Below, one piece after another: positions 16,001 through 60,527 of a DNA stretch of 64,000 bases. This DNA comes from Gautieria morchelliformis. Lineage: Eukaryota > Basidiomycota > Agaricomycetes > Gomphales > Gomphaceae. Each line of letters starts with the position of its first letter. Positions within the stretch are counted from its first letter, which is position 1. The position numbers were made by a program, and so were the translations under genes. Location: contig WHVA01000235.1 in assembly GCA_015179125.1 (NCBI GenBank), positions 62,001-126,000 on the forward strand. Direction: 5' to 3'. The notes under the pieces are model-generated. The model had not been told where the DNA came from. It was given only the letters and a program-made list of their open reading frames with translations, and searched no databases.

Positions 16001-16075
16001 TCGCAAGCACAACCTCTTCATAAAACCAGACAAGTGCCTCTTCCATTTGGACTGGGTCGAGTTCCTCAGATTTAT
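13019..16075 (+). mobile_element. Gypsy family C, 5' part without its LTR, broken
   Basis: The parts on the plus strand are: a proline-rich gag N-terminus with VGQP repeats (13039-13548), gag core and a CCHC-like knuckle (CLYCGEPPTHHAKGC, about 13795-14364), aspartic protease with DSGATSNFID (14379-15092), and reverse transcriptase (15342-16075, with a YLDNILIFS active-site region). The 5' LTR is missing at the junction with Gypsy A. The right side ends at the duplication TTTAT beside a family A LTR. It carries several breaks and is older than the A LTR beside it. Confidence 0.8.
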
Positions 16076-16494
16076 TGTCAGGGGACACCCTGTTTTCCAT
16101 TTCCAGTTCCGACACCACACCCAGTTCCGACTCCATTTCCGACTCCGCTTCCGGTTCCGATTCCATCTCCGCCTCCGCTTTCGGAAATGATTCCGCTTCT
16201 GGGAGATCTTCCACCAGTTCTGTTCGCCTTGCCAGTTCCACTCCAATTTCCGACCTCCACTCCTGGAACAGTGTCGGAAATCAAGCGACTCGCATAATAG
16301 GTGGCATCAAGGGTCGATCAAGGGTCAGGGGGATGCAGGGTTGATGGCGGGTGCCAAGTGTTGTCCCTGGCTGCGCAGCGTAGTATAATACGGGCTCGCT
16401 GACATTGGGGGGTCCTTAGACTTTTCTCTTTGGATTTCCCCTTGTCAGTTGTGTGGTAGTGTGATCTCCACAACTAGCCAGGGTTGCCCTTACA
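16076..16494 (+). repeat. Family A LTR, copy 1, with unmatched flanks
   Basis: Begins TGTCAGGGGACACC and ends GGTTGCCCTTACA. The left flank is TTTAT and the right flank GAGAT, so it is not a simple solo LTR. TTTAT recurs (as ATAAA) at the 34226 copy and GAGAT at the 39876 copy. At 419 bp it lacks about 62 bp between two internal copies of GGATTTCCCCTTGTCAG; the 482-bp copy at 39876 keeps both. Confidence 0.9.
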
Positions 16495-17870
16495 GAGATG
16501 GTGTTTGCATAGATGGCGGAGTACTTCGTGGACATGTTCCCGATGTTTTTCCGGTGTGTCGGAATAAATGAGGATGTCGTCAATGTAGACTAGAACACAT
16601 ACGTCGAGGAGGTCGGAAAATACGTCGTTCATCAATCGCTGAAAAGCGGCAGGAGCATTGGTTAGACCGAAAGGCATGACAACCCACTCAAAAGCACCGT
16701 AGCGGGTGCAGAAAGTGGTTTTCCACTTGTCACCTTCCCGGATGCGGACAAGGTGATAAGCGTGCCGGAGGTCAATTTTGGTGTAGATCTTCGCCCTGCG
16801 GGGAGTGTCGAGTAGGTCGGAAATTCGCGGAAGCGGATATTTGTCCTTCTTAGTGAGGGCATTGAGTCCGCGGAAATCGACGCAGAGGCAGAGAGATCCA
16901 TCCTTCTTCTTGACGAAAAGGACCGGAGCGCCGTGTGGAGACAGCGAAGGGCGGATGAAGCCCATGTTGAGATGTTCATCGACGAACTCGCGGAGAGTCT
17001 GGAGTTCACTTTGCGAAAGGGAGTAGATCGGTCCAAGGGGCGGAGATGCTCCTTCTTCCAAATCTATCTTCAAATCGTAAGGTCGATGTTCAGCAGGTTT
17101 GTCGGCTTTGGCCTTATTGAACACGTCCGGGAAGTCACGATATTCTTCCGGAACTGAGCTCATGTCGACCGGAGCGGAAGTCGAGGTGGAATGAGCCTTG
17201 ACTGAAGCTGAATCGGAAAGGTGAAGCTGATAAACAGTCGTATCCTCTTGCCGTTGCAATACGCGGAAAGCGGTGGCAGAGACGAGCGCGATTCGAGGAG
17301 CTTTGAGGGTCGGAGGTGCTAAAGCGGGACCGGAGTGCGGAACTGAATCCACGAGTGGAGTTGCAGAAGAGGCCTGGGCCATCTTTGCAGACGACGTCGG
17401 AATAGACGGAAGTTGATCCGGGGTACGGAACTGTATTTGACCCAATGCCCAGTTAATCGACGGATTATATCGGGTGAGCCAATTGTGTCCTAGTACAACG
17501 GAACAGCTAGCATCTAGCGGAGTAACGTAAAACGTAACTTCATGGTTGTCCCCAGTAGTGAAACGGATAGACAGATCCACGACTTGAGAAATTGCCGTGT
17601 TGGAAGATCCGTCGAAAAGGCGGAGCGGAATTGTCGGAATGTTGTGGGTCGGAAGTTTATGTTTCAAAACAAAGTCGGAATCGAGGAAACAATGAGTTGA
17701 ACCGGAGTCGACCAGTGCTGTGAACGGGGGTGTGGAAATGGTGTCGGAAGTGAGCGGAACAGAGAGGGAATCGGAGGACGAAAGAGCGGATGCGTTGAGT
17801 TTAACCTCGTTTGTCGCACGAATGGGGTCAACACAGCCCTCAGCTCGTGCGGGGGCCGGAGGACTGCTGA

Positions 17871-19307
17871 CTATTTTTTTGAATCCGCAGCAGGAGCCGC
17901 TTCAGATTTCTCTTCCGTCTTTGCTGCGCGGCCCCTGGCCTTAGCAGCGGAGGTGGAAGCGCAGGTGCAGTCGCGAGCGACGTGACCTCCTTTGCCGCAG
18001 AAAAGGCAAAGGTTGTTGTCCAGGCGATGCTGGCGTTCTACAGGGGTTAGTTTTCCGTCCTTCCCAAGTTTGTCGGAAAGGTCCGGAGTGCTCTTCCGGG
18101 CGTTGGTGTTGGAACCAGAGGCCTGGTTATTGCGAGGGGTGTTGTTGTTGTTGTTGTTCCGGTTGCCGGAGTTGGATCCGGAACTGTTGTTGCTGTTGTT
18201 GTTTCCGGAGTTGTTGTTTCCGGAATTAGTCTTCTTCTTGTCTTTATCAGACTTCTTGTCGGAAGACTTGTCGTTCTTGCTCTGGGCAGAGGTTTCGCGA
18301 GCAATCTCGGAGTGTCTTTCCCAGTAGTGCGAATCGATGGATTGGGTGAGGTTGCGGAGGTCGGTAAGGGTGGCGGGTTTTCCGACGCGGGCAATTTCAT
18401 CCTTGATGCAGGATGGCAAGCCCATGTAAAACTGGCGTCGGAGTGCGGCTTCTCCCCATTGGACTCGAGGAGCGAGCTGCTGGAACGTGACGATATATTT
18501 AGCTATCTTATGAGTGTCTTTCATACGAAGCTTATCGAGTTCATTTTCCGCATTGGCTTCCATGTCAAATGGTCCGAAGTTGCTGCGGAGTTTGGAAATG
18601 AAGTTGTGGTAATCGTCGGCCCAGTCGACGAGAGCGAACAGATCCATGAGGGCGGGTTCGAAGTAGTCGAGAGCCGTGCCTCGGAGATAGGAAAGGGCGT
18701 AATTGACCTTCCGTTCGTCGTCGGGAAAGGCGTCGGGGCGATCACGGAAATTGAGTTGAAGCTGGACCAGAAATGGTTGGAGCTTCTTGGGGTCGGAACC
18801 GTCGAACTGATCTGGTTCGCGGACCTTTGTCTTGGGGCGTGGTGGTGCTTGGGCCGGGCGCTGAAGTTGTCCGGCTAGCATGGCGATGGCTTGTGCAAGA
18901 TCCGGAACTGGCGCGGGCGGAACTGGGTTGGCGGGAATCTGAGGTGGAATTGGAGGTGGAAGACCGCCGGGAGGACCGCCTGGGGGACCGCTGGGTGGGC
19001 CGCCATGAGGGCCGCCTGGAGGTGGTCCTGGTGGAGGTGGTGGTGGTGGAGCTGGGCATCGGAATGACGCTGCTGTTTGTTCGCCACTGCTACTCGTCGA
19101 ATTCCCATCATAGTCGGGATTGTCGTCGCGATTAGCGTCGGGAACTTCTTCGAAACGTTGCGGAATAGCATCGGAGAGCTCATCGTCGGCACGAGAGCTG
19201 CCAGAGGGTTCCGCGTGCCTTGGTGCTGCGGATCTAAGACTGCCAAAATAAGAGAGAGCTTCGACAGCTCCTGCTCGAGCTGAAGTAGCTGTGGTACGAG
19301 GAGGCAT
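17871..19307 (-). CDS. Gag of Gypsy B
   Basis: A 478-aa open frame with a proline/glycine-rich N-terminal third (PPPPPPPGPPPGGPHGGPP), a capsid-like middle (FRDRPDAFPDDERKVNYAL, about aa 185-330), an Asn/Ser-rich linker, and one zinc knuckle (CLFCGKGGHVARDC, about aa 435-450). Such proteins form the particle that packages element RNA. Length and order are normal for a Ty3/Gypsy gag. It starts 34 bp after the 5' LTR. Confidence 0.85.
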   Translation of the reverse strand: MPPRTTATSARAGAVEALSYFGSLRSAAPRHAEPSGSSRADDELSDAIPQRFEEVPDANRDDNPDYDGNSTSSSGEQTAASFRCPAPPPPPPPGPPPGGPHGGPPSGPPGGPPGGLPPPIPPQIPANPVPPAPVPDLAQAIAMLAGQLQRPAQAPPRPKTKVREPDQFDGSDPKKLQPFLVQLQLNFRDRPDAFPDDERKVNYALSYLRGTALDYFEPALMDLFALVDWADDYHNFISKLRSNFGPFDMEANAENELDKLRMKDTHKIAKYIVTFQQLAPRVQWGEAALRRQFYMGLPSCIKDEIARVGKPATLTDLRNLTQSIDSHYWERHSEIARETSAQSKNDKSSDKKSDKDKKKTNSGNNNSGNNNSNNSSGSNSGNRNNNNNNTPRNNQASGSNTNARKSTPDLSDKLGKDGKLTPVERQHRLDNNLCLFCGKGGHVARDCTCASTSAAKARGRAAKTEEKSEAAPAADSKK

Positions 19308-19340
19308 AGTGATAGTTATCGGGTGGGAATCAGATAATAC

Positions 19341-20058
19341 TGTTACATATCGAGATTTCCACTAAGTCGGAACTGGAAAGGACAGCGGCTTCAACTTGTA
19401 GGTTGCGCCCCCAATGAACTATCGTCCTAAGTATTTCGGAACTGAGTCAGAAGTCGGAAAGTACTGAACCAAAGGTTTGGTCAGAACTTGAGTCGGAACT
19501 GAGGCGGAAGGCGGAAGACGGAAGGTGGAAGACGGAAGGCGGAAGACGGAAGGCGGGGAGACTGAGATCTTGCTAGACTCGCTGTGCTAAGAACAGGAGA
19601 TGGAGTGAAGGAAATCAAGTATCGAAGGCGATTATCTGATTGCAGAATAACAGACATACATGAGGGGTTTTTATACAAAGAGCTGAGACAACAGGTAATG
19701 ATATGGTACTAAGCAAATTCCGGAGGAAGCGGAAGTCGAGTAGACAATGCGTGGGAACTAACTATTGGGAACAATGGGACTACAAGAGGGGTTCAGGGTA
19801 AGGTAGAACAATGGCAAAGAACAAGGGGTCGGGAAAACATATCTGACAACGAATTACAAGGGTGGCCGGATATATGGTCTTGATGGACGGTGAGGTGGGT
19901 CTGGTGGGTCCGAGTAATAGAGTCGAAAGAACAAGGAAAATGTACAAGGGGCGGAATGTCGGAAATAACGGAGGGGCGGAAGGTGTTGCGGAAATATCGG
20001 AGGGGCGGAAGGTGTGGCGGAACTGAGGGTCGGAAGTCGGAAATGAACAGTCGTAACA
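19341..20058 (-). repeat. 5' LTR of Gypsy B (718 bp)
   Basis: Begins TGTTACATATCGAG and ends GAACAGTCGTAACA on the plus strand. It contains a run of GGAAGACGGAAGG-type repeats near 19500-19560 that is longer than in the solo copy at 11922. The outer flank is AGTTT, inside the Gypsy A gag frame; the matching outer flank at the 3' end has been lost with the truncated LTR at 35633. Confidence 0.85.
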
Positions 20059-21768
20059 AGTTTCTCCTCCATGGTCATAAGCCGGATGTCAAAGGCTTGG
20101 GGGCACTTGCGAGCATAGTGGCCTGGTTGTCTGCATCGGAAGCAGGTGATAGTTCCGTGGCCTCTTCCACGCACGCGGTCAACATCCACCGGGGCAGGGC
20201 CACCCTTTGAGGGAGGGGGGCTAGGGTTCCTAATAGGAGCAGGCGGAGCAAGCATCGGAAATATTTTCCGTGTGGGAATGAATGCACTTCCCGGTTTTGG
20301 CGCAGGTGGAGTAGGACGAGCGGAACTGCGTGTCATGTTCCGGTTTGTCTCCACGAAGGCCTCATTTGCTTCCCTGTTCCGGGACACCCTCTGCGCAGCT
20401 TGGTACCACCCTTCCGGGTCATCGAAATCCGGAGCTCCATCCCCAAGCAGCGCAACTTGGTTCTGCAGTGTCGGATCAAGTCCTCGTCGGAATTTGATGA
20501 CGATCGTCTTGTCGTCGTCATACTCCGCAAGGTCAATGAGCTCCTGGAAGCGATCGATGTAGTCATCGACCGGATCCTTGGCCTGGTACCAGCTTGTCCC
20601 CTCGAGCTTCGTAAGGGCTGTGAGCTGCTCGTTTTTCGGGCAGAACTGGTCGGAAAATGTTTTCTCAAAGGCGTCCCAGTCCCGGAAGAAGTTCCCCTTG
20701 CCCTTCGCTTCATGTCGGATCACCTTGTTTGCAAAATGGGCTGCGCGGTCCGACTTGAAAAAGGACAATGCCCAGTGGATCTGAGCCTGGTCGTTCGGAA
20801 AGAGGTCTCCGACAATTGCAAAGTAGATGCTGCATGTGTTGAAGAATGCGCGTCCCTTTTCCTGATCTCCATCAAAGTCTTCCGGAGTTGCAGGTTTGAC
20901 CTTTGCTAACTTCGTGGACATCCTCTCTTCCGCTGCTTCCGCTTTGCCAAAATCTGGATCATCCAGCATTTCATTTCCACCAGTTTGTGGAATATCTAAC
21001 TTAGCCAAAATCGCTTGTAAGGCTGTTTCAATCGCGTCGGTCTTCATCCGGTTCCACGTCAATTCCTCCTCCATATTCCGAAGACGATCGTCCGGATCCA
21101 TGTCGGAAGGAGAAATATGGGACAGGATTTCCGGGGTTGGGAGCTCGACGTAAGAAGAGGGGCTGTCGTACGCCGTGTGTGCGGAAGAGGTTGCAATCTC
21201 CGAGTCGCTGTCTCCGATTCCGAACGCACCTATCGCGAATGCAACACGCAGTACGACCGCCGGTCCTCTAGGGGAGAGACTTTCTGCTGTAAGGGCAACC
21301 CTGGCTGGTTGTGGAGATCACACTACCACACAACTGACAAGGGGAAATCCAAAGTCTGTATAAATGAATAGAGTATACAAAAGAGGGGATTCTCACCTGA
21401 CAAGGGGAAATCCAAAGAGAAAAGTCTAAGGACCCCCAATGTCAGCGAGCCCGTATTATACTACGCTGCGCAGCCAGGGACAACACTTGGCACCCGCCAT
21501 CAACCCTGCACCTCCCTGACCCTTGATCGACCCTTGATGCCGCCTATTATGCAAGTCGCTTGATTTCCGACACTGTTCTGAGAGTGGAAGTTGGAAATTG
21601 GAGTGGAACTGGCAAGGCGAACAGAACTGGTGGAAGTTCTCCCAGAAGCGGAATCATTTCCGAAAGCGGAGGCGGAGATGGAATCGGAATCGGAAGCGGA
21701 GTCGGAAATGGAGTCGGAACGGGGTGTGGTGTCGGAACTGGAAATGGAAAACAGGGTGTCCCCTGACA
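20059..21768 (-). mobile_element. Gypsy family A, 5' LTR and gag, interrupted
   Basis: The family A LTR at 21298-21768 (TGTAAGGGC...CCCTGACA) is followed on the minus strand by a leader and a gag frame (21101 down to 20064) with a typical retrotransposon capsid region (FFNTCSIYFAIVGDLFPND) and a CCHC knuckle (CFRCRQPGHYARKC). The frame is cut at 20059 by the Gypsy B LTR. The outer flank of the LTR is CTGGC, which does not match the TTCAT outside the 7938 LTR, so it cannot be called the other end of that element. It is part of a broken element with at least one nested insertion. Confidence 0.8.
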
Positions 21769-22266
21769 CTGGCGCGCTTCCGGCCCCCTCCTCAAACTGA
21801 GGACCCGGCTGTTGAGGCCATGCTCCGCGAGGACACGGGCCCCAGCACCCAAGCGGAGACCGCCGCTAGTGGTGAGGCCGACCAGCCTCACCCAATCACC
21901 ACCGATGACGTGGAGGTGCCCCCGGAGGAGTCACGTGCTCCCCCGGCCCCGTACGATGACGTCGTCATCGTATCGGCCACTCTAGAGGACTCCCTCATGG
22001 ACGACCTCTATGAGTAATAGTTAACCCCTATAGTTGTCTATAGAGGGGGAGGGTGTAAATAACCCATGTATCTACATGTACATTAGTTATTACATAATCC
22101 CAGTGGGCCCCTTAGGGACCCACTGTATAGTTTATGCGTGGGAACCGGCTAGCGGTCCCCATCGCATCTTACCCTTACACTGTCACTACGTAGCATCAGA
22201 ATACCACACATTGGTCAAGTTCTGTCGTGCTCTTGTGACTCAAGGCTTAAGATAGACATCTTTACA
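21769..22266 (+). mobile_element. 3' remnant of another LTR element (family G): ORF tail, purine tract, LTR
   Basis: An acidic open tail (VEAMLREDTGPSTQ, ending DDLYE and two stop codons at 22015-22020) is followed by a purine tract (AGAGGGGGAGGG) and directly by a 213-bp segment (22054-22266) that starts TGTAAATAACCC and ends CATCTTTACA. This is the order expected at the 3' end of an LTR retrotransposon. No diagnostic pol motif remains, so the superfamily is unknown. It is cut on the left by the family A LTR. Confidence 0.5.
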
Positions 22267-22847
22267 GGTTCCCATGCTTAAAATTAACCTGTACCCGCAT
22301 GCCCTCCCTGATCCTTGTCCACCCACTCCCTTTCCTACCTCTTTCACTGCCTTCACCCAGACCTGGTACAATATCATGAAAAATAAACAAATAATGAGCC
22401 GAATCCAGGTATATGGCATCAGATCCCTACATGCCTGTCAGGATGAGTGCTGCAGCCGCCAGGTTGACCATATGGATCAAATCTGTGGTTACATAGGTGG
22501 TAGGTGGTACAACAAAGGCCTGAATGCAGATCCATTAGTATAGATCCATCAAAATCCGAATCCTATATATATTTACATTTTTACACCATGTGTCCAGTTC
22601 TAGGTACATCAAGTGTAGCAACCTCCTCCATAGGTTGCCCTGGTCAAGTGAAATGATGAAAAGCAAAAAAAAAAAAACTCACATGTGTAGTACACCTCCA
22701 TCCTCATTGTTCCAGCAATGCCACATTCAGGTATAGACTATAACATGGTGGTAGTTGCCACTGACCCAGTGAGGTCTCTTCTGCTACCATCATTCTTGCA
22801 GTCAAATGCATCGAGAGGGACGTAGTCGAGCATCAGCCTGAGTGCAG
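22267..22847. other. 3' flank of the NLR-like gene
   Basis: No gene is recognised. A 12-bp A run lies near 22666. This is the downstream side of the minus-strand NACHT gene. Confidence 0.4.
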
Positions 22848-25800
22848 TCATTCCCAGTTCTCCATATGTGTTGCACTCTTCAGGAGCAGCTTAACAATGG
22901 CATGATGACCCTCTGATGATGCCGCGTGGAGTGCACTGCCATATTTGCCACCTTGCACATTGACATCTGCTCCCTTCTCCAGGAGCAGCTCAACAGTGGC
23001 CTGATGACCCCCTGATGACCCTGCCTGGAGTGCATTTCCATACTTGCCACCTTGCGCATTGACATCTGCTCCCTTCTCCAGGAGCAGCTCAACAGTGGCC
23101 TGATGACCCCATGATGATGCTGCCTGGAGTGCATTTCCATACTTGCCACCCTGCACATTGACATATGCTCCCTTCTCCAGGAGTGTCTCAACAGTGGCCT
23201 GATGACCCCATGATGACGCCGCCTGGAGTGCATTTCCATACTTGCCACCTTGCACGTTGACATCTGCTCCCTTCTCCAGGAGCAGCTCAACAGTGGCCTG
23301 ATGACCCCTTGATGACGCCGCCTGGAGTGCATTTCTATACTTGCCACCTTGCACGTTGACATCTGCTCCCTTGTCCAGGAGCAGCTCAACAGTGGCCTGA
23401 TGACCCCATGATGATGCCGCCTGGAGTGCATTTCCATACTTGCCACCTTGCGCATTGACATCTACTCCATTCTCCAAAAGATCCTGGGATGCTCTTTCTA
23501 GCCCAGCCATTGACGTATAGTAGATGGGAGCGCCTCTCTCTTTAGGATTTGGGTTTTTAAGCCCAAGCCAATTTGAGTACACCCCTGCATCCCTGGATTG
23601 AAGAAGAGCCATAATCAGTCGGCGCAAATCAATGTCATTGTCATTGTCTGGCTGGGCATGGCGAAACCAGTTTCGCGCAGCATATGAACATAGTGGATGG
23701 GATATGCGTGTACCCTTCCTTATGCAACCATGCTGGTTGAATTGTAGCAGGTAGGCTACACATGTCTTGGCCATGAACGTATTGGCCTGTTTTTCGCTGC
23801 AGTGATAGATGGTCAGCTCGACGTGGTTGCGAAGGCCTTCCGAGACCAAATATTCGCGCACGGAGAAATGTGCCAGCTTGAGCTCTGTGAATCTCTCCCG
23901 TTCCTTGGACTCGAAATAATCTGGGTTTGGCAGCACGACGCTAAAGGTGACCAGGCTCGAGCATATGGTCAGGATGTCTAGTGGATCATCAAACCGCCGA
24001 TCTCGGTCGAATAGGGGGCCATTTACGGCATCAGGATTCGTAGCGAGGACATCCACGGCCTGGCTGAGCGACACCTTGTCGACCGAGAAAGCGAGCCATT
24101 GCAGCAATTTGAGAGCATGTACTCTATCGCGCTCGTCGATGTGTAGGAGAATCCTATCGTAGGTCTTGTATAGAGTCGGTGGTAGGTCGGTGAGTGCCAT
24201 CTGAAGCTCGTGGGGAGATCGGCACTTCCGTAGTGAATCCAGCTGACAAACAACCCATCGAAACCTGGCTGACCCGTTAGTAGCGTCCCCGAGAATGTAA
24301 AAATGATCACATACATGCCATGCGCACCATCCAGTAAAGTGATCTTGATGGTTTCCCTTTTTTCTTCCGAGTATCTAATGAATTTGGGATCATCATTCAT
24401 TTGCCTTGACACGTAGACTTGGATGTCGCCGTCGACGAGACTCTCATCCATGGGTACCTGATGGGAAACCAGGTCCCTCAGTGTCTTCTCAATGTCTTGC
24501 TCGTACCGACTCGTTGCTAGGAGGTGTAATTTGTCAAAGTTCCATCCTTGTATTTCTTTGATCAGTTTCAGAAATTCAGGTCGATCTGGACATTCGTCAA
24601 GGGCATCGAAGACGATATACACGTCATTCTTGAAAGTGCCAATGATGGACTTGAGTGTCGACTCCAGTTCCTCGGAAGATGGTGATTGCTTCCCATCCCC
24701 TTTTCTAGAGAATAAGTCCCCCAGATAGTCAGGGATCTTCGGAGATGTTTTTGCAGAGGTCCTCGCGGACAGCTGTTTAATCAGTGCACGAAGAACGGCA
24801 GGTGGCTTTGTATCCTTGCTGTGAAAATCAAAGTAGAAGAATGCAATTGCGAGCGAGGCGTCTGATTCGCAGTGACGGGAGATCTCCCTAATGATGGTCG
24901 AGCTTGGTACACGGATTTGTTAGCAGGATACCTAGATAGCTCAATAGGTTTGAGTTATATACCACAAGATAGTCTTCCCAGCACCAGCTGTGTATACTAA
25001 TCAGCGACGACCATCAATAAGCCAAGCAGAGAATGCACCCTTGCCATGAAGCCATAGCAACGACTTGGGCTTGCCTCTCCAGTCCTGAAAACAGTCTCCC
25101 TGCACAAACCATGCGCCGGTGTTTCCTTCTCGCTCCGTGATGGCAGTCAAATGTTTCGACTCGTAGTCAGGAGCCGACAGCCAATTATAGATATCCTGAC
25201 GACGTTGGTTATCATGTGTCTCCAGCACCAAACGTCTGTCGACATGAAAGGATCAGCTGCAGTCCGCGGTTAGGCAATCAAACCTACGCTTGATCAATGG
25301 CCAATGCCGCAACAGGCTGGTGCTGGACCCTTTGGAGGTTCTCAAGAGTCTTATTAACCTCGCCTTGGTTGAATGTGTAAAACAACGCTTCCATGCGAGA
25401 TGCGCGTACATCCTTTGTTTCTAGCTTCTTCGCCAAGCTCTGCAGCTCGTCGTGACAATCCTTGAGAACACGAGGTAAATTCATGCGATCATTGTTGATG
25501 TCCGACGCATTCCCTGCTGTATTGCCACCTTCAGTCGCTAAGACATCACCAGTTATCGCAGGGGCGTGGGCGGTGCCATCTGTGCGTTCAACATGGGTTT
25601 CCGACGCATTCCCGGAATGGCTAGTTGTCCCAGGGGGATACCCTATGCCATCTGTGCCTTCATACCGGGCTTCTATCGTATTCCCGCGTCCTTTTCGCTT
25701 GAACTTCTTCAAGAGGCTTTTCAGGAGACTCGCATGCCCAATTGGCATCGATTCAGTGCGTCTATTTCCGGGTCGCGAGCCATCCTCGCTGTTTGTCAGC

Positions 25801-26138
25801 AGCGGAGGCTTGCCAGAAGTTTGAGGCTCATTGGGTATACTGAGCGCAGCAGTCAAAGTTGGCAATCGAGAGGACCTTTGGACGTCCTCGGCCACTATGA
25901 GCCCATTAAGGTCAAGGAGCACCTGACGTAGCCCGGAGATCTGGTCGCTGACTCTGCGCATATCTCTGGACGCATTCCTGTACGCAGTTCCATACGCGGA
26001 GCACCTGCCGATAACATCTTCGGTGAGCTGGACAACGGCAATGACGCTCGCTGAGTGGACTGATGAGCATCGCAGTAGAAGGAAAATAAGCATAGCCAAC
26101 TTGCCTGCTCCTCCCAGACCTGCCAGAGCTTCAGCCAT
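22848..26138 (-). CDS. NACHT-ankyrin NLR-like protein, six exons, apparently intact
   Basis: The exons are 26120-26138, 25288-26050, 25039-25235, 24963-24987, 24315-24902 and 22848-24264; all five introns (50-69 nt) are GT-AG and the total is 1,002 codons plus stop. The N-terminus (MAEALAASVIAVVQLTED, then ISGLRQVLLDLNGL) resembles the helical N-terminal domain common in fungal STAND proteins. A Ser/Gly-rich linker follows. The NACHT NTPase has WLSAPDYESKH, Walker A GKAGAGKT (about aa 325-333, assembled across two introns and a 25-nt exon) and Walker B VFDALDEC (about aa 431-438). Six ankyrin repeats close the protein (about aa 795-995). Fungal NLR-like proteins of this type oligomerise on ligand binding and mediate non-self responses; the role here is inferred. 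The ATG was chosen because it gives the family-like N-terminus and lies about 45 bp from a TATA motif. Confidence 0.88.
22860..23475 (-). repeat. Six near-identical 99-bp ankyrin repeats
   Basis: Six 33-aa units share NVQGGKYGNALQAASSWGHQ with only a few changes; variable residues are W/R/G/E after ASS, V/A after N, and D/E before KGA. DNA-level identity is as high as the protein identity, so the array has expanded or been homogenised recently. The last unit is more diverged and runs into the C-terminus. Confidence 0.9.
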
Positions 26139-26180
26139 CAAATCGAGTCGATGGTTATGGGAGTCCAGCACTGCCATCTC

Positions 26181-26188
26181 ATATATAG
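26181..26188 (-). promoter_or_regulatory. Candidate TATA box of the NLR-like gene
   Basis: TATATAT on the minus strand about 45 bp ahead of the chosen ATG. The position fits transcription starting shortly before that ATG and excluding the longer in-frame start at 26258. Confidence 0.35.
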
Positions 26189-29020: not shown

Positions 29021-29087
29021 TCTAGAGTGTCTGCCTAGGTTGCCCTTATATCCTCCCTTTCTTCACTCCTCAAGCGAACGCAGGCGA

Positions 29088-30368: not shown

Positions 30369-31106
30369 TAGAGTGTTTTTTAGAATTATTTTGAACATAG
30401 AAGGGTTTCTTGGATTTCTACAAGGTCCTAAGCCTTCGGTTTCTTCGGATATTTTGTGTGAAATTTGGCGAGTCTGCAAGCTGAATTAGTCACATTTGAA
30501 GAGGGTTCCCAAGACCTAGCCTCAGGGGTGTCCCTTCCACTCTACTAAGTATTCGAGCCTCTTTCGGTGAACACGACTATCAAGGATTTTCGAGATTTCA
30601 TATTCATCAGCGGAGTCAATTTCAATGGGAGGCGGAGGATCTGCATGTTGGCCTGGAATAGTAGACGTCGTGGCTGGTTCAAGAAGGGATACATGGAACA
30701 CGGGGTGAATCTGGCAAAGATCCAATGGTAAGCCCAAGCGAAACACATGAGAAGATATTTTAGCCATGATGGGGTATGGGCCAAGTCTTCAATGATCGAG
30801 TTTCTTTGAAGGCCGTCTTGTGCGAATATTTTGCGAGTCAAGCCATACTTTGTCTCCAACCTGAAATTCAGGAATTGGAATGTGTCAACTGGTTGTGGCT
30901 GAAGTGTATTGGGTAATTGATTTCTTTATTTGATCTTGAAGGTACTGATGAAGGTCCTTGATATCTGCCAACTGGCGATAAGCATATTCTGAAGCAACCG
31001 AAGTGAGAGATACTTCAAGCTTTGGGTGGAAGCCTTTGTTGGTGAAAAAGGGTGTGACCTGTGTCGCCAAATGGGCAGTGTTGTTGTACGTGAATTTGGG
31101 GAGGGG

Positions 31107-32260
31107 TGTCATGACGTGTTTATTTCCCATACTCAGAAGCTCAGTTTTCCTATTTTCTCACTCCACCTTCATGTTCGTTCCGATCGCCATTGTCATGTTT
31201 GGCAACCAATTCTCGCTGTTCGCGCCAATTACCACAGCCACGCCGTCTGTATTTCCTGCAACTTGTTACCCCCATTTCCCCTTTCGCTACTCCTCCCCAG
31301 TGTTCGCTTGGCTTCGCCCTCCACCTCAACCTGTCCTCCTTTAGTCACCTCTGTTCACCCTTCCTTGTATTTCGCCGAACGACCATTCGCTGCTCGCATC
31401 ATTTGCCAGCAGGCACACCATCAAATCACAATCGACATCCCTATCCGGCATAATGGCTCATCAGTAACTCCATCAGCTTCTCGATCCAACCCCCATTTGG
31501 TGTTCATATGAGCAGGGTGCGATCGCGGGACGTCCTACCCGTGGGTCGTGTGGGATCAACCCAGTAGATGAAGAACCCGTGCAGGGCAGTGTATATGCGG
31601 GCCCCAAGACACGATTTTGTACACAGGTGTCTTCGCCACCTTCACCCTCCGTCGTTTCATGTTCTCCCTCTTCTCTCACTCTATTGTATGTTTATTTCAT
31701 CTATGTTGTATCATGACTGCGCACCCCTATCCAACCCTGACTCGTGACGGCCTCTTTCCTATTCGCTGACACCTTACGATATAAGTAGTTTACATTCACA
31801 TGTATATTCCCCAGTTCAATTATCATACATCATTCATCTTGTGCAGCTTTGACCTCGCTGTGGTCATCGTCTTAAGCCTTCTCTTGGAGATTTCTATCTT
31901 CGACTAGCAGAGGACTTAGGCATCACTGGTGAGTTCCCATACTTCATCATCATTACTTTAGCCTTCGAACCATTTTCTGTGCTGTTGGCGAAGGGCTCCG
32001 AAGGAGCACCTTCGCCAGCAAAGGGATTGTCGAGACTTAGACAGCCCTTCCATGAGATCTTGCACGTTACATCGTCAAGAGCCACGGGTTATTTCGCTAC
32101 GACTGTAGATAGGGGGAGTCCCGTTCAGGCAACCCTCTTACTTTGTGAACATTCATTGGTTCACCTATTCGCCGAACGGCATACTTATTCGCACAAGTTA
32201 TTCGGGCATTTGCTGTGTTCACTAATACACGATATTAACGCCTGAAAACCAATCTTGACA
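31107..32260. repeat. Solo LTR, family D
   Basis: Begins TGTCATGACGTG and ends CCAATCTTGACA; flanked by AGGGG on both sides (31102-31106 and 32261-32265), a perfect 5-bp duplication. It is a single-copy version of the LTR at 9042-10630, including the CATTCGC-rich 5' half and the GTGTATATGCGGG TATA-like region near 31590. Confidence 0.9.
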
Positions 32261-32269
32261 AGGGGGAGG

Positions 32270-32764
32270 TGTTGGGTGCATTTATGCTCCTGCACCAAAA
32301 TCAAGCATAATATATTCAATTTATTGTATGGTGTTTCAATCTCTTCTCACATTGTTCTTGTACCATGCATCCATTTCTCTGATTGTTTTCTAAATTTTCC
32401 AGTCACTCTCTACCTCTCCATTCCATTTTGTTATTTCTATTTTCACAAGCCGCTGCACCCAGCAGAGTCTGAAATGACTTCGACACGCGAGCTGGGCGCT
32501 AAAGAGCCGGGTAGTAGTACATGCACAGTGAGACAGATTTCCCCCTCTCTCAGTGACAACTAAATTCACTGAGAGAGGCAAGTAAATTAGTCTAGTGTTC
32601 TTTCAATTTATTGACCTAGAAATCCTCTGTAGTGAATTAATTTCTAGGTAGTGTATAATATATTTACAGTGACAACTAAATTCACTGAAAGAGTGAATTA
32701 ATTTCTAGTCTATTCTTTTGAGCAACAAGTCCATACCTACTGCCTATAATTCCTGTCTACTACA
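32270..32764. repeat. Solo LTR, family E (495 bp)
   Basis: Begins TGTTGGGTGCATTT and ends TGTCTACTACA; flanked by GGAGG on both sides (32265-32269 and 32765-32769). It contains two copies of a block with ACTAAATTCACTGA and AATTAATTTCTAG. It lies only 9 bp from the D LTR, in the same G-rich spot of the Gypsy C integrase. Confidence 0.85.
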
Positions 32765-34225
32765 GGAGGATGTCGATCCAGTCATCCTGCTGGTAGTTGA
32801 TGTAGATGTGGAGATACCGTTCTAGGATCTGGTTCACTTGTTCTGTCTGTCCGTTGGTTTAGGGGTGGTAAGCTGTGGATAGGTTGCCTTTGATGCCAAG
32901 GATTTTGCAGAGGGAGGTCCAGAATTGTGACGTGAAGTGCTTTCCTCGATCGGAAATGATGTCACTGGGACTACCATGTTTAGCGAATACATGGCGAAGG
33001 AGAGCATGGCGACGTCTCCTGAATCAATTTCTGAAAATGTCAGAATGAACAGTGCCATCTTTGTGAGCCAGTTGACAATGACGAGGATCATGTCGTGTCC
33101 ATCTGAGAGTGGAAGTCCTTCGATGAAGTCCAAGGAGATCGAGTCCCAGGGCCATTGGCTGATGGGCAGAAAGCGAAGAGGACCGCAGGGTTTGTGAATG
33201 AATTTAGCATGGCGACACTTGGAACAGAAACCGAAATGATGCAGCGAGCGAAGGATGTCCAAGGGAATGTCGTTGTGATCAGGGACATAGGTTTGCTGTT
33301 TGTACAACAGTGTTTTGCCATCTTCTCCAAGTGACCAAGGGTCTGGCTTCCCATTCGGAGGGATGATCACCCTTGTCTCCTGACTGAAGACGAGTGATGT
33401 GGGTTGAGGACAAAGGATCGGTCAACTGTCCCTGTTGGATGGATGTCAACAGTGATGCAGAGTCAAGGATGATGGCACGAATGAGTTGCCCAGTCTTAAA
33501 CATCGACTGGAAGTTGTGAGGATTCACCAATGCGTAATCACCATCCCCCGCTTTAGGGTACATGTCACCTCAACGGGGGTCAAAGCATCTAGGTTTGTGC
33601 CGAGTCACCTGGCTCCATAGCAGATGATGTAGTTGAATCCTGAGAGATGTTCAGACCATCGTACCTGGCGTCAGGTCAGCTGCTTTGTGGTTGCAAAGTA
33701 CTTGAGGTTCTTGTGGTTAGAGAGGATGAGAATGATGTGGGATGCCCCGTCGAGGTAGTTTCGCCATTGCTTAAAGGTGCAGAAGATGGCAAGAAGCTCC
33801 TTGTCGTAGATTTCATAGTTCATCTCAGGTGGTGCCATGCCATGCAAATAGAAGGCGATCAGGTGGATCTCGCCATCAGAGGGGGTGATCTGGGATGATG
33901 GTGACGATGGCGTAGTCAGAGGCATCCATTTCAATGACAATTGGATTTTGGGATCGAAGTGGATGAGGAATGGAGCCTTTGAGAATGCAGCTTTGAATGC
34001 ATTGAAGGCCTCCTGCTGCTTCACATCCGAGGCAAATGGTGTATCCTTCCTGGTCAAGCGAGTAAGTGGTAAGACAATGTCTGAGAACTAAACAATGAAT
34101 CTTCTGTAGAAGTTGGCAAAGCCCAAGAACGATTGGACTTCGCGGAGGTTTGTCAGTACAAGCCACTTTGTGATGGCAGCAGTTTGCTTGATGTCCATGG
34201 AGATGCCAGCAGGAGAGATGATAAA

Positions 34226-34706
34226 TGTAAGGGCAACCCTGGCTAGTTGTGGAGATCACACTACCACACAACTGACAAGGGGAAATCCAAAGTATGTATA
34301 AATGAACGGAGTATACAAGAGAGGGGATTCTCACCTGACAAGGGGAAATCCAAAGAGAAAAGTCTAAGGACCCCCAATGTCAGCGAGCCCGTATTATACT
34401 ACGCTGCGCAGCCAGGGACAACACTTGGCACCCGCCATCAACCCTGCATCCCCCTGACCCTTGATCGACCCTTGATACCACCTATTATGCGAGTCGCTTG
34501 ATTTCCGACACTGTTCCGGGAGTGGAGGTCGGAAATTGGAGTGGAACTGGCAAGGCGAACAGAACTGGTGGAAGTTCTCCCAGAAGCGGAATCATTTCCG
34601 AAAGCGGAGGTGGAGATGGAATCGGAACCGGAAGCGGAGTCGGAAATGGAGTCGGAACTGGGTGTGGTGTCGGAACTGGAAATGGAAAACAGGGTGTCCC
34701 CTGACA
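34226..34706 (-). repeat. Family A LTR, copy 2, with unmatched flanks
   Basis: Reads TGTAAGGGC...CCCTGACA on the plus strand (481 bp). The left flank is ATAAA and the right flank CTGTC. ATAAA pairs with the TTTAT left of copy 1, and CTGTC with the GACAG right of copy 3. It differs from copy 3 at only a handful of positions. Confidence 0.9.
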
Positions 34707-35632
34707 CTGTCCATCTCCTCCCAAAAGCTGCCAAATGGCAATATCCACCGAGGTCTCCAGCTTTACGTGTATGGTTGGGAAATGGCTGAAGGACTTGACA
34801 CAGACTCCCCCCTAAAACCAGACCTTGTTGGTTGTCAGTCTGCTGGTGAGAGCCGAGGCTCGAAGCTGAAGCTCTCATGGAACGAGGCTGAAATTTGCGT
34901 AGAGGTGAAGAATAACTGGCCTGGTTTGATCCTGCAGTCAAGCACGTACGTGCGCTGTATGTTCACACACCGATTGGATAGACTCTTCGTCACTGTTATC
35001 CATTTCAACAATGCAACGATGGGGGTGCGCTTCGGATTTTATTCTCGCATGGGTCTGGTTGTTATGCCGGAACTTGACCTCTCGAAGGAGGGAGGCTTTA
35101 AAGGATTTGTCCGCGGAGTGGTTGGGATTAATTCTTGGACCGACACAAACCATGCTGGAATCGATACTACTCGTACCATCACAGACATTGTGATTCCCGA
35201 GAGGGGTATATTAAAGATTTCGAAAACACTTTGTGACCGACGTTGCGTTCGCGGATGAGCAACGCGTGTGTATCTTTTGGTCAAGAAGGGTGTGTTTTGA
35301 CGTTTAGAGATCTGGGCCAGTAGTTAACAATTGGGTTTGAAGGTGCAACCGCCACCGATGGTTCTCCCACTCAACCTCCGTCTACTCACTGGTATAACTT
35401 ACGAAGTCACCAACCCCCACGTTCTCAGCCTGGAAAAGAGACTGACGGTCGAGAACCCTTGAGGTTGAAGGGAGGCATATCTTTTTTCTTGCTGGACACT
35501 GTCATTCTGAAAGATTCATGGCCATTGAAACCCATAACGAAGAAGGCACAATATTTGGAGTGTTATCGGGCGGGAAGTGTTGACGCCTCAGAGCACCACC
35601 CTGCGGCTCTCAATCACGGGCCCATTCCCTGC
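34707..35632 (+). pseudogene. FunK1-type protein kinase relic, middle part
   Basis: The plus strand encodes ISSQKLPNGNIHRGLQLYVY, then LSWNEAEICVEVKNNWPGLI, YVRCMFTHRLDRLFVTVIHF and LDLSKEGGFKGFVRGVVGI, which is the N-terminal accessory region typical of FunK1, a kinase family expanded in mushroom-forming fungi. Later blocks RRCVRG and, after a frame change, ATRVYLLVKKGV and ILKDSWPL match the family's continuation, but an in-frame TGA at 35256-35258 and further stops break it. It ends at 35632 against the truncated Gypsy B LTR, so the kinase catalytic lobe is absent. The first codons continue exactly from the piece at 40358-40753. Confidence 0.75.
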
Positions 35633-38600
35633 GATTATCTGATTGCAGACATACTTGAGGGGTTTTTATACAAAGAGCTGAGACAACAGGTAATGATATG
35701 GTAACTAAGCAAATTCCGGAGGAAGCGGAAGTCGAGTAGACAATGCGTGGGAACTAACTATTGGGAACAATGGGACTACAAGGGGGGTTCAGGGTAAGGT
35801 AGAACAATGGCAAAGAACAAGGGGTCGGGAAAACATATCTGACAACGAATTACAAGGGTGGCCGGATATATGGTCTTGATGGATGGTGAGGTGGGTCCGG
35901 TGGGTCTGAGTAATAGAGTTGAAAGACCAAGGAAAATGTACAAGGGGCGGAATGTCGGAAATAACAGAGGGGCGGAAGGTGTTGCGGAAATATCGGAGGG
36001 GCGGAAGGTGTGGCGGAACTGAGGGTCGGAAGTCGGAAATGAACAGTCGTAACAGTATCTCCCTTCTAAGGTCGAGCCCCGCGAGACCACAGGTCGGATC
36101 ACGTGACCTGTGAACAAACGCATCGGAATTCTAAAAAAAATAGGCTGAGGAACAAACACGTCTTCTTTCCATTCCATCATGAGTACTCCAGTCAACTTCT
36201 CCAAAATGACCAGCGCTGAGATGAAGCAACATTTTGCTGACATGCTTGCGCAGAAGGAACTGGCCGAAAAGCGCGAGGCCGAGGAAGCCGTGCGGAAAGA
36301 GAGGGAACGTCTGGAGGAGGAGTGCAAGGAGAAAGAGCGCATGGAACAGGAGCGTCGGGAACAGGAGCGGAAAGAGAAGGAGGAGCGTGACTGTAAACGT
36401 CACGAGGAGGAGTCGCGTGTCCGCGAAGAACAGCGGAAACGGGACACGGCCAAAAAGGCTGCAGAGGACAAGGCCGCTGCGGAGAAGGCGGGACAATCCC
36501 GGGTGAGTCGGAAACGTCATGTGCTTAGTTCTGATGCTGACAGAAGAACTTGGCAGAAAATAATTGTCAAATCCGATTCCGAACCGGAATCGGAAGACAC
36601 CGCGGAAAGCACGCCGTCCCCTGAGGGGAAGGGGAAGCAACAGGAAGTAGTTCCTGTGCTGAACCTTGTGGCGGATTGGAAAAGGAGGGCGGACGAGTTT
36701 CAGCAGGCCAGGAAGAAAAAGATGGCCGGCATCATCGACCTTCGGGAATTGGGACCGGAGAATCCCGCAACCCGGAAACGGAAGACGAGGGACGGGGAAG
36801 AAGAAAAGGCCCCCTGTGACACATGCGAGGTGAAGTGGCTCGAGTGTATTTGGTCGGAAAATCCGCAGGAAACTGCCTGCGAACGGTGCCGCGACAAGAA
36901 GAGGCGATGCGTCATGGACGGATGTTCCGCGAGGGTGGAGCGGAAAAGGCGAAAGGTCGAGACCGAGGGGCCAGAAACCCCTAAGTTCAAACCAGGGCCG
37001 AGCGGGAAGAAGACGGCGGAAGGGCTTCCGGCGATCGGGAAATCGAACCTCGCGTCGCCTTTGCTTGACATCGCCGGGTCACTGAGGGGTATCCGGAGAT
37101 CCCAGCGCGGGATCCAGAACACGCTCGAGGAGATTTCGCTAGTTCAACAGCAGCAACTGTTGTCTTTCCAAAACCAGATGACAGTCATGTCGGCGGTTTT
37201 GGAGCAAATCAAGCGGGAGTTCCAGTGGCGGAACAATTTACTCCGGGACCAAATGGAGTGGCGGATGCAGGAGGAGAATGGGGCGGAAGCGGGTACGAGT
37301 CAGGTGGTGGATACGAGGGTGGGGACCGAGTTGGTCAATGTGGAGATAGGTCATGCGGAAGAGGGTGCGGAAGCGGAGAACGAGGGTGAAGTGGAAACGA
37401 TGAGGGAGGAGTGAGTGTCGAAGTGACTTGTAAATATTTCTTGAAGTGTCGGAAATTAGTGTAGCGGAATAGTAATCGGATTTGAACAATGACTTGAGAA
37501 CTTGTAAGAAAACAATGGGGTATCGGAAATGAGGTTGGAAATGACTAAGGCGCGGAAATGGGGCCAGGTTTATCAGGATAAGACTTGTGGAAATCAGAGA
37601 TGAGGTCAGAGGCGTGGTCTAGTTCCGTGGCGGAAATCCACGAGGTCTCTTCGTCGGTGTTTTCATAGCCTGCCCACTTGACTAGGTATTGGAGTTGGCA
37701 GCGGTATTGTCTGTCGAGCTTGGAGTTGAGAATTTCCGAGATTTCATATTCCGGTTCTCCGTCGATGACGACTGGCGGAGGCGGAGGCTGTTCTCGATTC
37801 GGAATTGTATTCGGAACTGCGGGCTCAAGCATGGAGACATGGAATACCGGGTGTACTGCGCATATTGTCAGGAAGTCTGAGGGTGAAAGAACGACTGCCG
37901 GCCTTAGCGATGATCTCGTAAGGTCCAAGGTATTTCTCAGAGAGCTTCTTCGAGGGGCGAGTAGTGCGGAAGTTTTGCGCTTTGACAAAGACTTTGTCGC
38001 CAATCTCGAATGCCGGTTGCGGAAGTCGTTTCCGATCGGCGGAAGTCTGGTATCTCTTTTGTGCAGCGGAAATGTTCTCTCGGAGGTGCTGGTGAAGGTC
38101 GTCAAGTTCCACAACGAAATCTCGGGCTCTTGCAAAGGCGAGGTCGCGTTCGGGGTGGATGGCGAGATTCGGGTGGTAGCCCTTGTTGGCGTAAAAGGGT
38201 GAAATTCCGGTGGTGGCGGAAGGTGCATTGTTGTAAGCAAATTCCGCGAGCGGAAGAAGGTCGGACCAATTGCTGTGTTGGTAGTTGCAGTAGACACGGA
38301 GATACTGCTCAAGGGTCTGATTAGTACGTTCCGTTTGTCCGTCTCCTTCGGGATGATAACCGGAAATGAAGTGGAGCTTCATGTCGAGAGCCTTGCCGAG
38401 TGTGCGGAAAAAGGAGGACACAAATTCTGATCCACGGTCGGAAGTGACATGGGAAGGAATTCCGTGCTTGGAAAAGACTTGGAGCACGAAGAGCTGTGTG
38501 AGCTGGGCAGAAGTGATGGTGTCGTAGGTCGGAATAAAGATGGACTGCTTTGTGAGGCGGTCAACGATCACTAGAATGGTATCATAGTCAGATGACTTAG

Positions 38601-39875
38601 GAAGTTTCTCAATGAAATCCATGGATATCAAATTCCACGGTTGTTCTGGGATTGGAAGTTGCTTCAGGAGGCCGTAGGGTTTGTGACGTTGAGGTTTGGC
38701 TCGCATACAGGTGGTGCATGACTTGCAGTAGTCTTGGACCATCGTGCGGAGGAGGGGCCAAGTATAGGTACGTCGGATTATGTTGAGGGTTTTGTTCTGG
38801 CCTTGGTGTCCTGAGAGCGGATGATCGTGGCTTTGCTGGAGTACGCGAAGTCGTAGATCATTGGTATCCGGAACGTAAATCCGGGACTTGTACCGGAGAA
38901 ATCCGTCGGAATCGAGGGACCATCCAGGACTGGTGGGGTCATCGAGGTGGGCTGCGGAGATAGGGTCGGAACGGAGTGCGGAACGGATGTCGGAATGGAG
39001 AGACTCGGTGTCCATAATAATTGAGGCGCGGAGTAGCGGAAACTGCAATGCTGTGGCATGCAGGGACGATGCCAGTTGCTCAGTAGGGAATACTGGGCGG
39101 AAATTGTGCGGATTAACGCTGGCATAGTCGCTACTTCCCTCTTTTGGGTAGACGTCCCATCATCTAGTGAGTGCGTCGGGTTTTGCTCCGAGCTTTCCGG
39201 GGCGGAAGGGGATCACCATGTTGGACTGGGAGAGATATTCAGACCAGCGGACTTGACGGCGAGTCAAAATCTTGGTAGTGGCAAAATACTCAAGGTTCTA
39301 ATGATCCGTTACAACGTCGATCGGATAGGTTGGACCTTCGAGGTAGTGTCTCCAAATTTTGAAGGCTTCGAAAATCGCAAGTAGTTCCTTATCGTGGACG
39401 TCGTAGTTGAGTTCCGGGGTGGAAAAGGTGCGGGAATGAAAAGTGATCGGATGCATTTCTCCGTCGTCAGGGGAAATGATGGAAAGAATGGCGGCTAGCG
39501 CATAGTCGGAAGCGTCGGTTTCGAGTACAAGTTGGGCATCAGGAATCCAGAAACCGAGTATGGGAGCCATAGTGAAGGCCGATTTGAGGGCTTCAAATGC
39601 GGAACGGCATTCCGGAGTAAAATTCAATGGGGCACCCTTCCTGGTGAGACGCGTGAGCGGAACAGTAATGTCGGAAAAATTATAAATGAAATGCCGGTAA
39701 AAGTTGGCGAAGCCAAGGAAAGACTGCACATCCTTAACACGTCGGGGTTCCGGCCATTCTTGAATTGCCTTGACCTTGTCCTCTGCCATGGTAAGACCTG
39801 TTGGAGAGAGGATGTAGCCGAGGTATTCGACCGTGTCGCGGTGCCATTCGCATTTCTCTGCTTTTGCATAGAGAT
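35633..39875 (-). mobile_element. Gypsy family B chromovirus, 3' part with antisense accessory gene
   Basis: The minus strand has: reverse transcriptase end and RNase H (39875-39300), integrase (about 39125-38000), chromodomain (37800-37545, with YEISEILNSKL and YLVKWAGY), then the accessory gene on the opposite strand (36179-37414), a purine tract, and a 3' LTR (36053-35633) that is truncated at its outer end (about 420 of 718 bp). The inner end at 39875 is GAGAT beside a family A LTR. The frames are long and breaks are few, so this is a relatively recent copy. Confidence 0.85.
36179..37414 (+). CDS. Antisense accessory protein of Gypsy B: coiled coil plus Zn2Cys6-type cysteine array
   Basis: A 411-aa uninterrupted frame on the strand opposite to pol, tail-to-tail with the chromodomain gene. 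Residues about 20-115 are an almost continuous charged coiled coil (repeats of ERxEQERxEKE type). An acidic/Ser block follows (SEPESEDTAES). Residues about 213-244 contain C-x2-C-x6-C-x10-C-x2-C-x6-C with a basic RDKKRR segment, which is the spacing of fungal Zn(II)2Cys6 binuclear clusters. A second helical region (LLSFQNQMTVMSAVLEQI) lies at about 320-365 and an acidic tail ends the protein. The 125-bp leader has a CACAGGTC/GACCTGTG inverted repeat around a CACGTG core. A DNA-binding or regulatory role is inference; the usual basic residues in the first half of the cluster are lacking. Confidence 0.75.
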   Translation: MSTPVNFSKMTSAEMKQHFADMLAQKELAEKREAEEAVRKERERLEEECKEKERMEQERREQERKEKEERDCKRHEEESRVREEQRKRDTAKKAAEDKAAAEKAGQSRVSRKRHVLSSDADRRTWQKIIVKSDSEPESEDTAESTPSPEGKGKQQEVVPVLNLVADWKRRADEFQQARKKKMAGIIDLRELGPENPATRKRKTRDGEEEKAPCDTCEVKWLECIWSENPQETACERCRDKKRRCVMDGCSARVERKRRKVETEGPETPKFKPGPSGKKTAEGLPAIGKSNLASPLLDIAGSLRGIRRSQRGIQNTLEEISLVQQQQLLSFQNQMTVMSAVLEQIKREFQWRNNLLRDQMEWRMQEENGAEAGTSQVVDTRVGTELVNVEIGHAEEGAEAENEGEVETMREE

Positions 39876-40357
39876 TGTCAGGGGAGACCCTGTTTTCCAT
39901 TTCCAGTTCCGACACCACACCCAGTTCCGACTCCATTTCCGACTCCGCTTCCGGTTCCGATTCCATCTCCGCCTCCGCTTTCGGAAATGATTCCGCTTCT
40001 GGGAGAACTTCCACCAGTTCTGTTCGCCTTGCCAGTTCCACTCCAATTTCCGACCTCCACTCCCGGAACAGTGTCGGAAATCAAGCGACTCGCATAATAG
40101 GTGGCATCAAGGGTCGATCAAGGGTCAGGGGGATGCAGGGTTGATGGCGGGTGCCAAGTGTTGTCCCTGGCTGCGCAGCGTAGTATAATACGGGCTCGCT
40201 GACATTGGGGGGTCCTTAGACTTTTCTCTTTGGATTTCCCCTTGTCAGGTGAGAATCCCCTCTCTTGTATACTCCGTTCATTTATACATACTTTGGATTT
40301 CCCCTTGTCAGTTGTGTGGTAGTGTGATCTCCACAACTAGCCAGGGTTGCCCTTACA
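39876..40357 (+). repeat. Family A LTR, copy 3, with unmatched flanks
   Basis: Reads TGTCAGGGGAGACC...GGTTGCCCTTACA (482 bp). The left flank is GAGAT and the right flank GACAG. GAGAT matches the right flank of copy 1; GACAG is the complement of the CTGTC right of copy 2. Confidence 0.9.
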
Positions 40358-40753
40358 GACAGAATCTGGTTGAGTAACCACTCCAACGGCGCATAATGAG
40401 CGCTTTCTGGACCAGTGCAGCTGGGCTATTCCTTGAAAGTGTCAGTTGGGCTGTCCCAGAACACGCCAGGTTTCAGTTTGGATAGGACAGTGTCGACAAT
40501 TTTTTGATCCGCCCTACAGCGCTCTTCAAGCAGAGAATTACTCGAATATCGCACCGGAGAACTCGCCCTTCATCAGCTTTTTCAAATCATCCTGGGTCTG
40601 AATGTGTGATTCATGAGATTTACTGGAACTGACGCTATATGGTGTGCTCGTCATCAACGGAAGCTTGAGAGATTGGGGCGGTGTTGATGGCATCTGGAAT
40701 AACAAATATCGAGAATTAGAGGCAGACAACAAGTAAAGAACTATGTTGTGCAA
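40358..40753 (-). pseudogene. FunK1-type kinase relic, N-terminal part
   Basis: The minus strand starts MPSTPPQSLKLPLMTSTPYS (ATG at 40692; a longer in-frame ATG lies at 40753) and continues KLMKGEFSGAIFE, where a stop and frame change occur; family-like sequence goes on as VDTVLSKLKPGVFW and YAPLEWLLNQIL up to the LTR at 40357. It ends within GACAG, and the next codons of the family are found at 34707 on the other strand. A CACGTG core lies about 90 bp upstream (near 40790). It has decayed beyond the insertion itself. Confidence 0.65.
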
Positions 40754-60391: not shown

Positions 60392-60527
60392 TGAAGCATA
60401 TTGCTCATGTAGATTTTGTTTTACTGCACATATACCCTGTGAAAACTATTCTCTTTCGCATCATACTCGTACTCAATTTGATTTCATTTTGAAGTCTGAA
60501 TCATATCCCTACTCAACAAGTGGTCTC

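Follow-up and report, generated by a model that had tools for sequence, protein, structure and literature searches.

A 64,000-nt stretch of contig WHVA01000235.1 (positions 62,001 to 126,000) from the basidiomycete Gautieria morchelliformis, hereafter the window, contains three solo long terminal repeats (LTRs) of one retrotransposon family, family A, whose 5-bp flanks do not match around any single copy but pair exactly across the three copies in a closed swap. The first solo LTR lies at 16076-16494 (+), the middle one, common to both inversions described below, at 34226-34706 (-) and the third at 39876-40357 (+), and the two segments between them, X (16495-34225; 17,731 bp) and Y (34707-39875; 5,169 bp), are inverted relative to their state when the LTRs inserted. 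A single arrangement, in which both segments are turned in place, restores three ordinary insertions, and it rejoins the interrupted reverse transcriptase (RT) genes of two different Gypsy elements, Gypsy B and Gypsy C. The window is in a rearranged state, and we consider it likely that this state arose by a true double inversion in the organism, through recombination between inverted solo LTRs that share the middle copy.

Family A LTR copies in the window

Six clear copies of the family A LTR were found by comparing the window with itself and by a profile search, the latter adding a weak seventh match at 58352-58519. A fourth solo LTR, at 44553-45012 (+), is bordered by matched CTTTC duplications and is an undisturbed control; its border was placed at 44553, where the copy starts with TA instead of TG, and the profile match proper starts at 44555. 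The remaining two copies are the one at 7938-8397 (-), which follows a Gypsy chromodomain at a distance of about 100 bp and is read as a 3' LTR, and the one at 21288-21768 (-), which sits within segment X, abuts the start of a gag open reading frame (ORF) and is read as a 5' LTR. Family A thus also occurs as the LTR of coding elements, and because these two copies appear to be attached to Gypsy internal sequence and are not solo-like, matched flanks are not expected at them. Pfam profiles, applied to 40 of the 66 ORFs that reach 150 aa, also gave a match to SH3_Tf2-1 in the chromodomain ORF beside the 7938 copy. The initial annotation had the coordinates and flanking 5-mers of the four solo LTRs right and left these other two copies unmentioned; its statement that neighboring copies alternate in orientation holds for the three swapped solo LTRs but not for every copy, since the 21288 copy lies inside X.

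The three swapped solo LTRs share the ends TGTCAGGGG...CCCTTACA (TG...CA) and carry no attached internal region of their own family, their flanks being Gypsy B, Gypsy C and kinase sequence; near the control copy at 44553, no Gypsy match was found by Pfam in the plus- and minus-strand ORFs scanned. They are also the most alike of the six copies, with pairwise identities of 99.0-99.4% (the other 12 pairs range from 92.4 to 96.9%), identical runs of 101-163 bp and few single differences, and the first is 63 bp shorter than the third through an internal deletion. The 21288 copy shares an identical run of 129 bp with the middle solo LTR. The 63-bp deletion in the first copy, located at 16428-16448 of the window, falls between two direct repeats, CTTTGGATTTCCCCTTGTCAG, both of which are retained in the middle and third copies, and slippage or annealing between the repeats is a candidate for its origin. 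In the family A sequence at 21261-21768 (-), a run of 7 bases soon after the 5' LTR is the complement of a stretch at position 342 of the LTR, which follows a TATAATA by 33 bp, a weak sign that family A may be self-primed as well.

A closed three-way swap of 5-bp flanks

On the forward strand, the first solo LTR is preceded by TTTAT (16071-16075) and followed by GAGAT (16495-16499), the middle one lies between ATAAA (34221-34225) and CTGTC (34707-34711), and the third between GAGAT (39871-39875) and GACAG (40358-40362). The ATAAA is the reverse complement of the TTTAT at 16071, the CTGTC is that of the GACAG at 40358, and the two GAGAT are identical. Read in the orientation of each LTR, the left/right flanks are therefore TTTAT/GAGAT, GACAG/TTTAT and GAGAT/GACAG for the first, middle and third copies, so that each left flank is the right flank of another copy, in three of three pairs. 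The corresponding flanks are CTTTC/CTTTC at the 44553 copy, and GGTGA/ATGAA and GCCAG/GCAGA at the 7938 and 21288 copies. Neither of the last two copies finds a partner anywhere in the flanks of the six, those of the other unpaired copy included, and their flanks may belong to different insertions or may have been swapped with copies outside the window.

The initial annotation had proposed, from the CTTTC on both sides of the 44553 copy, that family A makes 5-bp duplications, and the flanks bear this out: comparison of left and right flanks at the LTR edges gives matches in 4 of 36 cases at 5 bp and in 0 of 36 at 3, 4, 6 or 7 bp, as is expected of 5-bp duplications. When 5-mers were drawn at random from the window, 192,246 of 200,000 draws had no match, 7,588 had one, 165 had two, one had three and none had four, the number seen. 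A matched duplication stands directly around the 44553 copy, but around the other three solo LTRs only once X and Y have been turned, and they are for this reason not filed as ordinary insertions. A family B solo LTR at 11922-12610 (-), which lies between two parts of a Gypsy RNase H, provides a further control with matched GGTGG duplications, and both of the other solo LTRs that were examined thus have ordinary, intact duplications.

The word GAGATG is found within 27 bp at all three insertion sites. A shared target motif was considered but is not claimed: among 20,000 random triples, 0.34% have a word of at least 6 bases in common, but the motif was sought post hoc, and by eye the printed flanks of the 44553 copy are without GAGATG.

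Turning X and Y restores three insertions

The eight possible orders and orientations of X and Y were compared, and only the one in which both are flipped in place has matched duplications at three of three junctions; the other seven, the swapped order included, have 0 or 1 and were rejected. In 100,000 random sets none reached three matches in any of the eight arrangements, and one reached two. When all five segments between the six LTRs were permuted, the best score among 3,840 signed arrangements was 4 of 6 matches, reached by two arrangements that both have X and Y turned and that differ only at the two LTRs without a matched duplication. The proposal that flipping 16495-34225 and 34707-39875 restores three insertions at once is thereby upheld. 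The three solo LTRs have the orientations plus, minus and plus, such that neighbors are inverted repeats and the first and third are direct repeats; the same kind of recombination between the latter two could also delete about 24 kb. Mismatched duplications would likewise result from aberrant integration, in which the ends of LTR elements are joined to different target sites and the inversions are made during insertion, but with all six flanks partnered this would require several coordinated aberrant events against two ordinary recombinations, and we regard it as very improbable.

Rejoined reverse transcriptases of Gypsy B and Gypsy C

In the assembled sequence, Gypsy B is split between the two segments. 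Its first part (16495-19361, -) has matches to Retrotrans_gag, RVP_2 and RVT_1 and an RT that is cut at the junction with the first solo LTR, and it is preceded in X by a 718-bp family B LTR as its 5' LTR (19341-20058, -). The second part (37548-39875, -), which starts at the junction with the third solo LTR, holds the end of the RT, RNase H, integrase and a chromodomain, and a truncated 3' LTR follows in Y (35631-36054, -). In their best alignment piece the 5' and 3' LTRs agree at 400 of 409 positions, compared with 639/721 and 358/397 (89-90%) between them and a third family B copy. As assembled, the RVT_1 match of Gypsy B ends at position 182 of 205, exactly at the junction, and in the restored short join it reaches 205 of 205. 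The order gag, protease, RT, RNase H, integrase, chromodomain, as seen by Pfam and typical of Ty3/Gypsy elements of the chromodomain type, holds across the restored junction. In the case of Gypsy C, the first part (13474-16075, +) comprises gag, protease and RT up to the first solo LTR, with homology to Gypsy B seen to 16016, and the second part (30528-34225, -), which starts at the junction with the middle solo LTR, comprises the end of the RT, RNase H, an interrupted integrase and a chromodomain. Homology resumes leftwards from 34231 on the minus strand with RT, RNase H, integrase and chromodomain, and the order from gag to chromodomain across the restored junction is seen from homology to Gypsy B and to a third Gypsy element of the window.

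Short joins were built with 330 bp of flank on each side and one duplication kept, with the joins as assembled used as controls. The alignment of the restored RT joins of Gypsy B and Gypsy C is a single gapless BLAST segment of 193 residues, with 51% identity, that spans both junctions, whereas the control joins align on one side of the junction only, with an overrun of 0-2 residues and, in one case, of about 27. With the RT of the third Gypsy element, the restored Gypsy C join gives an alignment of 107 residues, of which 17 precede the junction, and the control join one of 90; the alignment of that RT with the Gypsy B join is confined to the part after the junction and is hence uninformative. 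It is firmly supported by this homology that the flip would make the RTs of two different Gypsy elements continuous, and we regard this as the best independent proof of the rearrangement. Chance agreement of the 5-mers might be entertained because five-base matches are short, but none of the 100,000 random sets matched three junctions in the eight arrangements, and two RT homologies are restored at the same junctions; chance is refuted on both counts, and its probability is negligible.

Several further features of these elements were observed. When the RT genes are aligned, the LTR insertions into Gypsy B (16495) and Gypsy C (16075) are separated by about 20 codons, which may be a coincidence or may reflect a preferred target. 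Two stretches that lie within integrase interruptions of two different Gypsy elements, 9737-10630 and 31371-32260, are 79.5% identical, apparently sit at different codons and are perhaps a further mobile element. The 3' LTR of Gypsy B ends early, at 35631, where other sequence near a kinase fragment follows, a breakpoint that the two inversions do not explain. In Gypsy B, an 11-base run just left of 19341, which begins with the third base past the 5' LTR, is the complement of an 11-mer that sits at position 418 of the LTR and follows a TATAAAA by 34 bp, and on this ground the element looks self-primed like Tf1, self-priming being a trait of that family. A partial gag at 7537-7845 (-), just beyond the 7938 LTR, has 57% identity to the Gypsy B gag over 107 residues.

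The third junction

The third restored junction would join a FunK1-type kinase fragment (34707-35255, +), which starts at the junction with the middle solo LTR, to a piece at 40358-40687 (-) that is proposed, from the 5-bp duplication only, to be the upstream part of the same kinase gene. The fragment matches PF17667 (fungal protein kinase) at 22.3 bits, under the curated cut-off of 24.1, and the profile begins 36 residues past the junction, so that it cannot test the other side. The piece leading leftwards from 40358 may resemble the N-termini of FunK1 proteins, and the ORF further out, at 41005-41523 (-), has no Pfam match. The kinase join at this site is weakly supported by sequence, and the third junction rests on its own duplication and on the other two junctions, which fix both segments. 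The earlier proposal that each pairing also rejoins parts of one flanking unit consequently stands firmly for Gypsy B and Gypsy C, through their RT homology, and only weakly for FunK1, where a single side is matched.

Origin of the rearrangement

The history that best accounts for the rearranged state would begin with three family A insertions, one in each of the RT genes of Gypsy C and Gypsy B and one probably in a FunK1-type kinase gene, each followed by internal recombination between its LTRs, which would have left three solo LTRs that alternate in orientation. The first and second of these would then have recombined by homologous crossing-over and so turned the 17.7-kb segment X, and the second and third, in the same way, the 5.2-kb segment Y, either in turn or together; X and Y are disjoint, and the order of the two inversions can therefore not be told. 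Each exchange would produce hybrid LTRs with one flank from each parent, which would leave the 5-bp duplications in the closed swap. We infer that the event took place in the organism, that it proceeded by homologous recombination and that an ordinary insertion had occurred at each site beforehand. The junctions lie in sequences that were already interrupted by LTRs, such that flipping may cost the host little.

No point was found against the rearranged state itself. Several results add nothing to its support, and one consideration tells against its being biological. The joined 160-aa kinase piece and its 109-aa right half both have no Pfam match, the join bringing no gain, and FunK1 continuity by Pfam was rejected as evidence; on the left side, the kinase frame meets a stop after 22 open codons. 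Open frames run through the restored joins for 218 codons in Gypsy B, 134 codons in the RT frame of Gypsy C (164 and 155 in the other frames) and 131 codons in the kinase, but the control joins as assembled also have long open frames, of 218, 195 and 148 codons; these frames were dropped as evidence because the controls have long ones too, and the argument rests on homology and the duplications. Exact words from the LTR core had no match in genome_contigs (38-base words) or viral_contigs (23-base words), collections without eukaryotes. The point against a biological origin is that DNA bounded by inverted, near-identical repeats of 480 bp is just what an assembler is unable to orient when its reads do not reach the length of the repeat.

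This last consideration leads to the chief rival, a double misassembly, in which the chromosome would carry three ordinary solo LTRs and the assembler would have misoriented X and Y through the near-identical inverted repeats. Reads of less than about 480 bp fit either orientation of X and Y, given that the three LTRs are 99.0-99.4% identical and inverted between neighbors, and all three junctions fall at LTR edges with every duplication accounted for. There are, on the other hand, zero N in the 64,000 bases despite six LTR copies and a repeat-rich window, and the copies keep copy-specific differences, the 63-bp deletion included; together these suggest that the assembly may have spanned the repeats. 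We give misassembly something like one chance in a few, well behind the true double inversion; both weightings are a judgement and not a computed value, and those attached to the rival explanations are not mutually exclusive. The initial annotation had offered double inversion or double misassembly as the explanation, and the unique restoring flip and the gapless rejoining of the RTs support that pair.

Two elaborations of the double inversion receive much less weight. It is rather unlikely that the locus is a live flip-flop, with repeated inversion around the central LTR and up to four isomers among nuclei or isolates, or alternatively that a single event produced the present state by one broken LTR invading two others. 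Slightly less likely again is the overlapping possibility that both orders exist, the locus flipping between up to four isomers in the two nuclei of a supposed dikaryon or among cells and the assembly having caught one of them. Here geometry is the sole support, since two adjacent segments that each lie between inverted, near-identical LTRs could re-invert, and ectopic crossing-over between repeats of about 480 bp is normally rare.

Other content of the segments and the window

In addition to halves of Gypsy B and Gypsy C and the family A 5' LTR with its gag, segment X holds two overlapping ORFs at 22851-24919, with ankyrin repeats and a match to an NPHP3_N/NACHT-type nucleoside triphosphatase (NTPase), NACHT itself being below cut-off, and an ORF at 27053-27862 that matches the C-terminal domain of glycerol-3-phosphate dehydrogenase. 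Within the ankyrin-repeat ORF, beside the NPHP3_N-type NTPase ORF, there are about six 99-bp tandem units (22877-23476) that are 88-92% alike. Segment Y holds the kinase fragment and the remainder of Gypsy B. Elsewhere, about 390 bp at 60006-60392 match their own reverse complement at 84% identity, and a chitin synthase match is found by Pfam among the ORFs of the window, which, together with the fungal-kinase match, indicates fungal DNA and nothing narrower.

Discussion

The window demonstrates how solo LTRs can reshuffle a chromosome from a single contig and without a relative for comparison, because each flank of the three copies has a partner and independent evidence comes from the two interrupted RT genes. 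If the double inversion is true, the locus offers a ready-made test of LTR-mediated inversion in Gautieria morchelliformis; if it is a misassembly, the same check of target-site duplications (TSDs) is a cheap detector of such errors in repeat-rich assemblies.

The inference of rearrangement from mismatched flanks has precedents. Hughes and Coffin, in 2001 and 2005, reportedly inferred rearrangements by recombination between elements of HERV-K(HML-2) from the sequences of the elements and their flanks, and compared with those rearrangements the present cycle is closed. The closest case among those considered is that of SERV-K/MER11 in gibbons, where a provirus has mismatched TSDs and a solo LTR has the corresponding mismatched ones, from which a crossing-over of two proviruses was inferred together with its reciprocal product (eLife 2024, PMC11379458). 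In both systems mismatched TSDs reveal a reciprocal LTR recombination, but the gibbon event is a chromosomal translocation, whereas here there are two adjacent inversions between three solo LTRs, which fit within 24 kb, and a single contig contains all three products. In plants, solo LTRs without TSDs have been attributed to recombination (PMC7251063); unlike those, the missing partner of each TSD is found here, and it is for this reason that the event can be reconstructed. Among fungi, the account of Marasmius oreades attributes deletions to non-allelic recombination between transposon copies and includes one inversion at a repeat (PMC9674265), and is similar in invoking recombination between repeat copies in a fungal genome; the inversion described there differs in that it involves a hAT element and a deletion and that TSDs played no part in inferring it. 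For fission yeast, 5-bp TSDs are mentioned at elements and at a solo LTR (PMC10085805), a report that we do not use as a precedent. Among the titles and abstract openings surveyed on the subjects of LTR recombination, duplications and rearrangements, none names a closed cycle of three LTRs, although one may have been published. The mechanism and the logic of inference are already known, and the Gautieria morchelliformis locus is an unusually complete, closed example of them and not a new kind.

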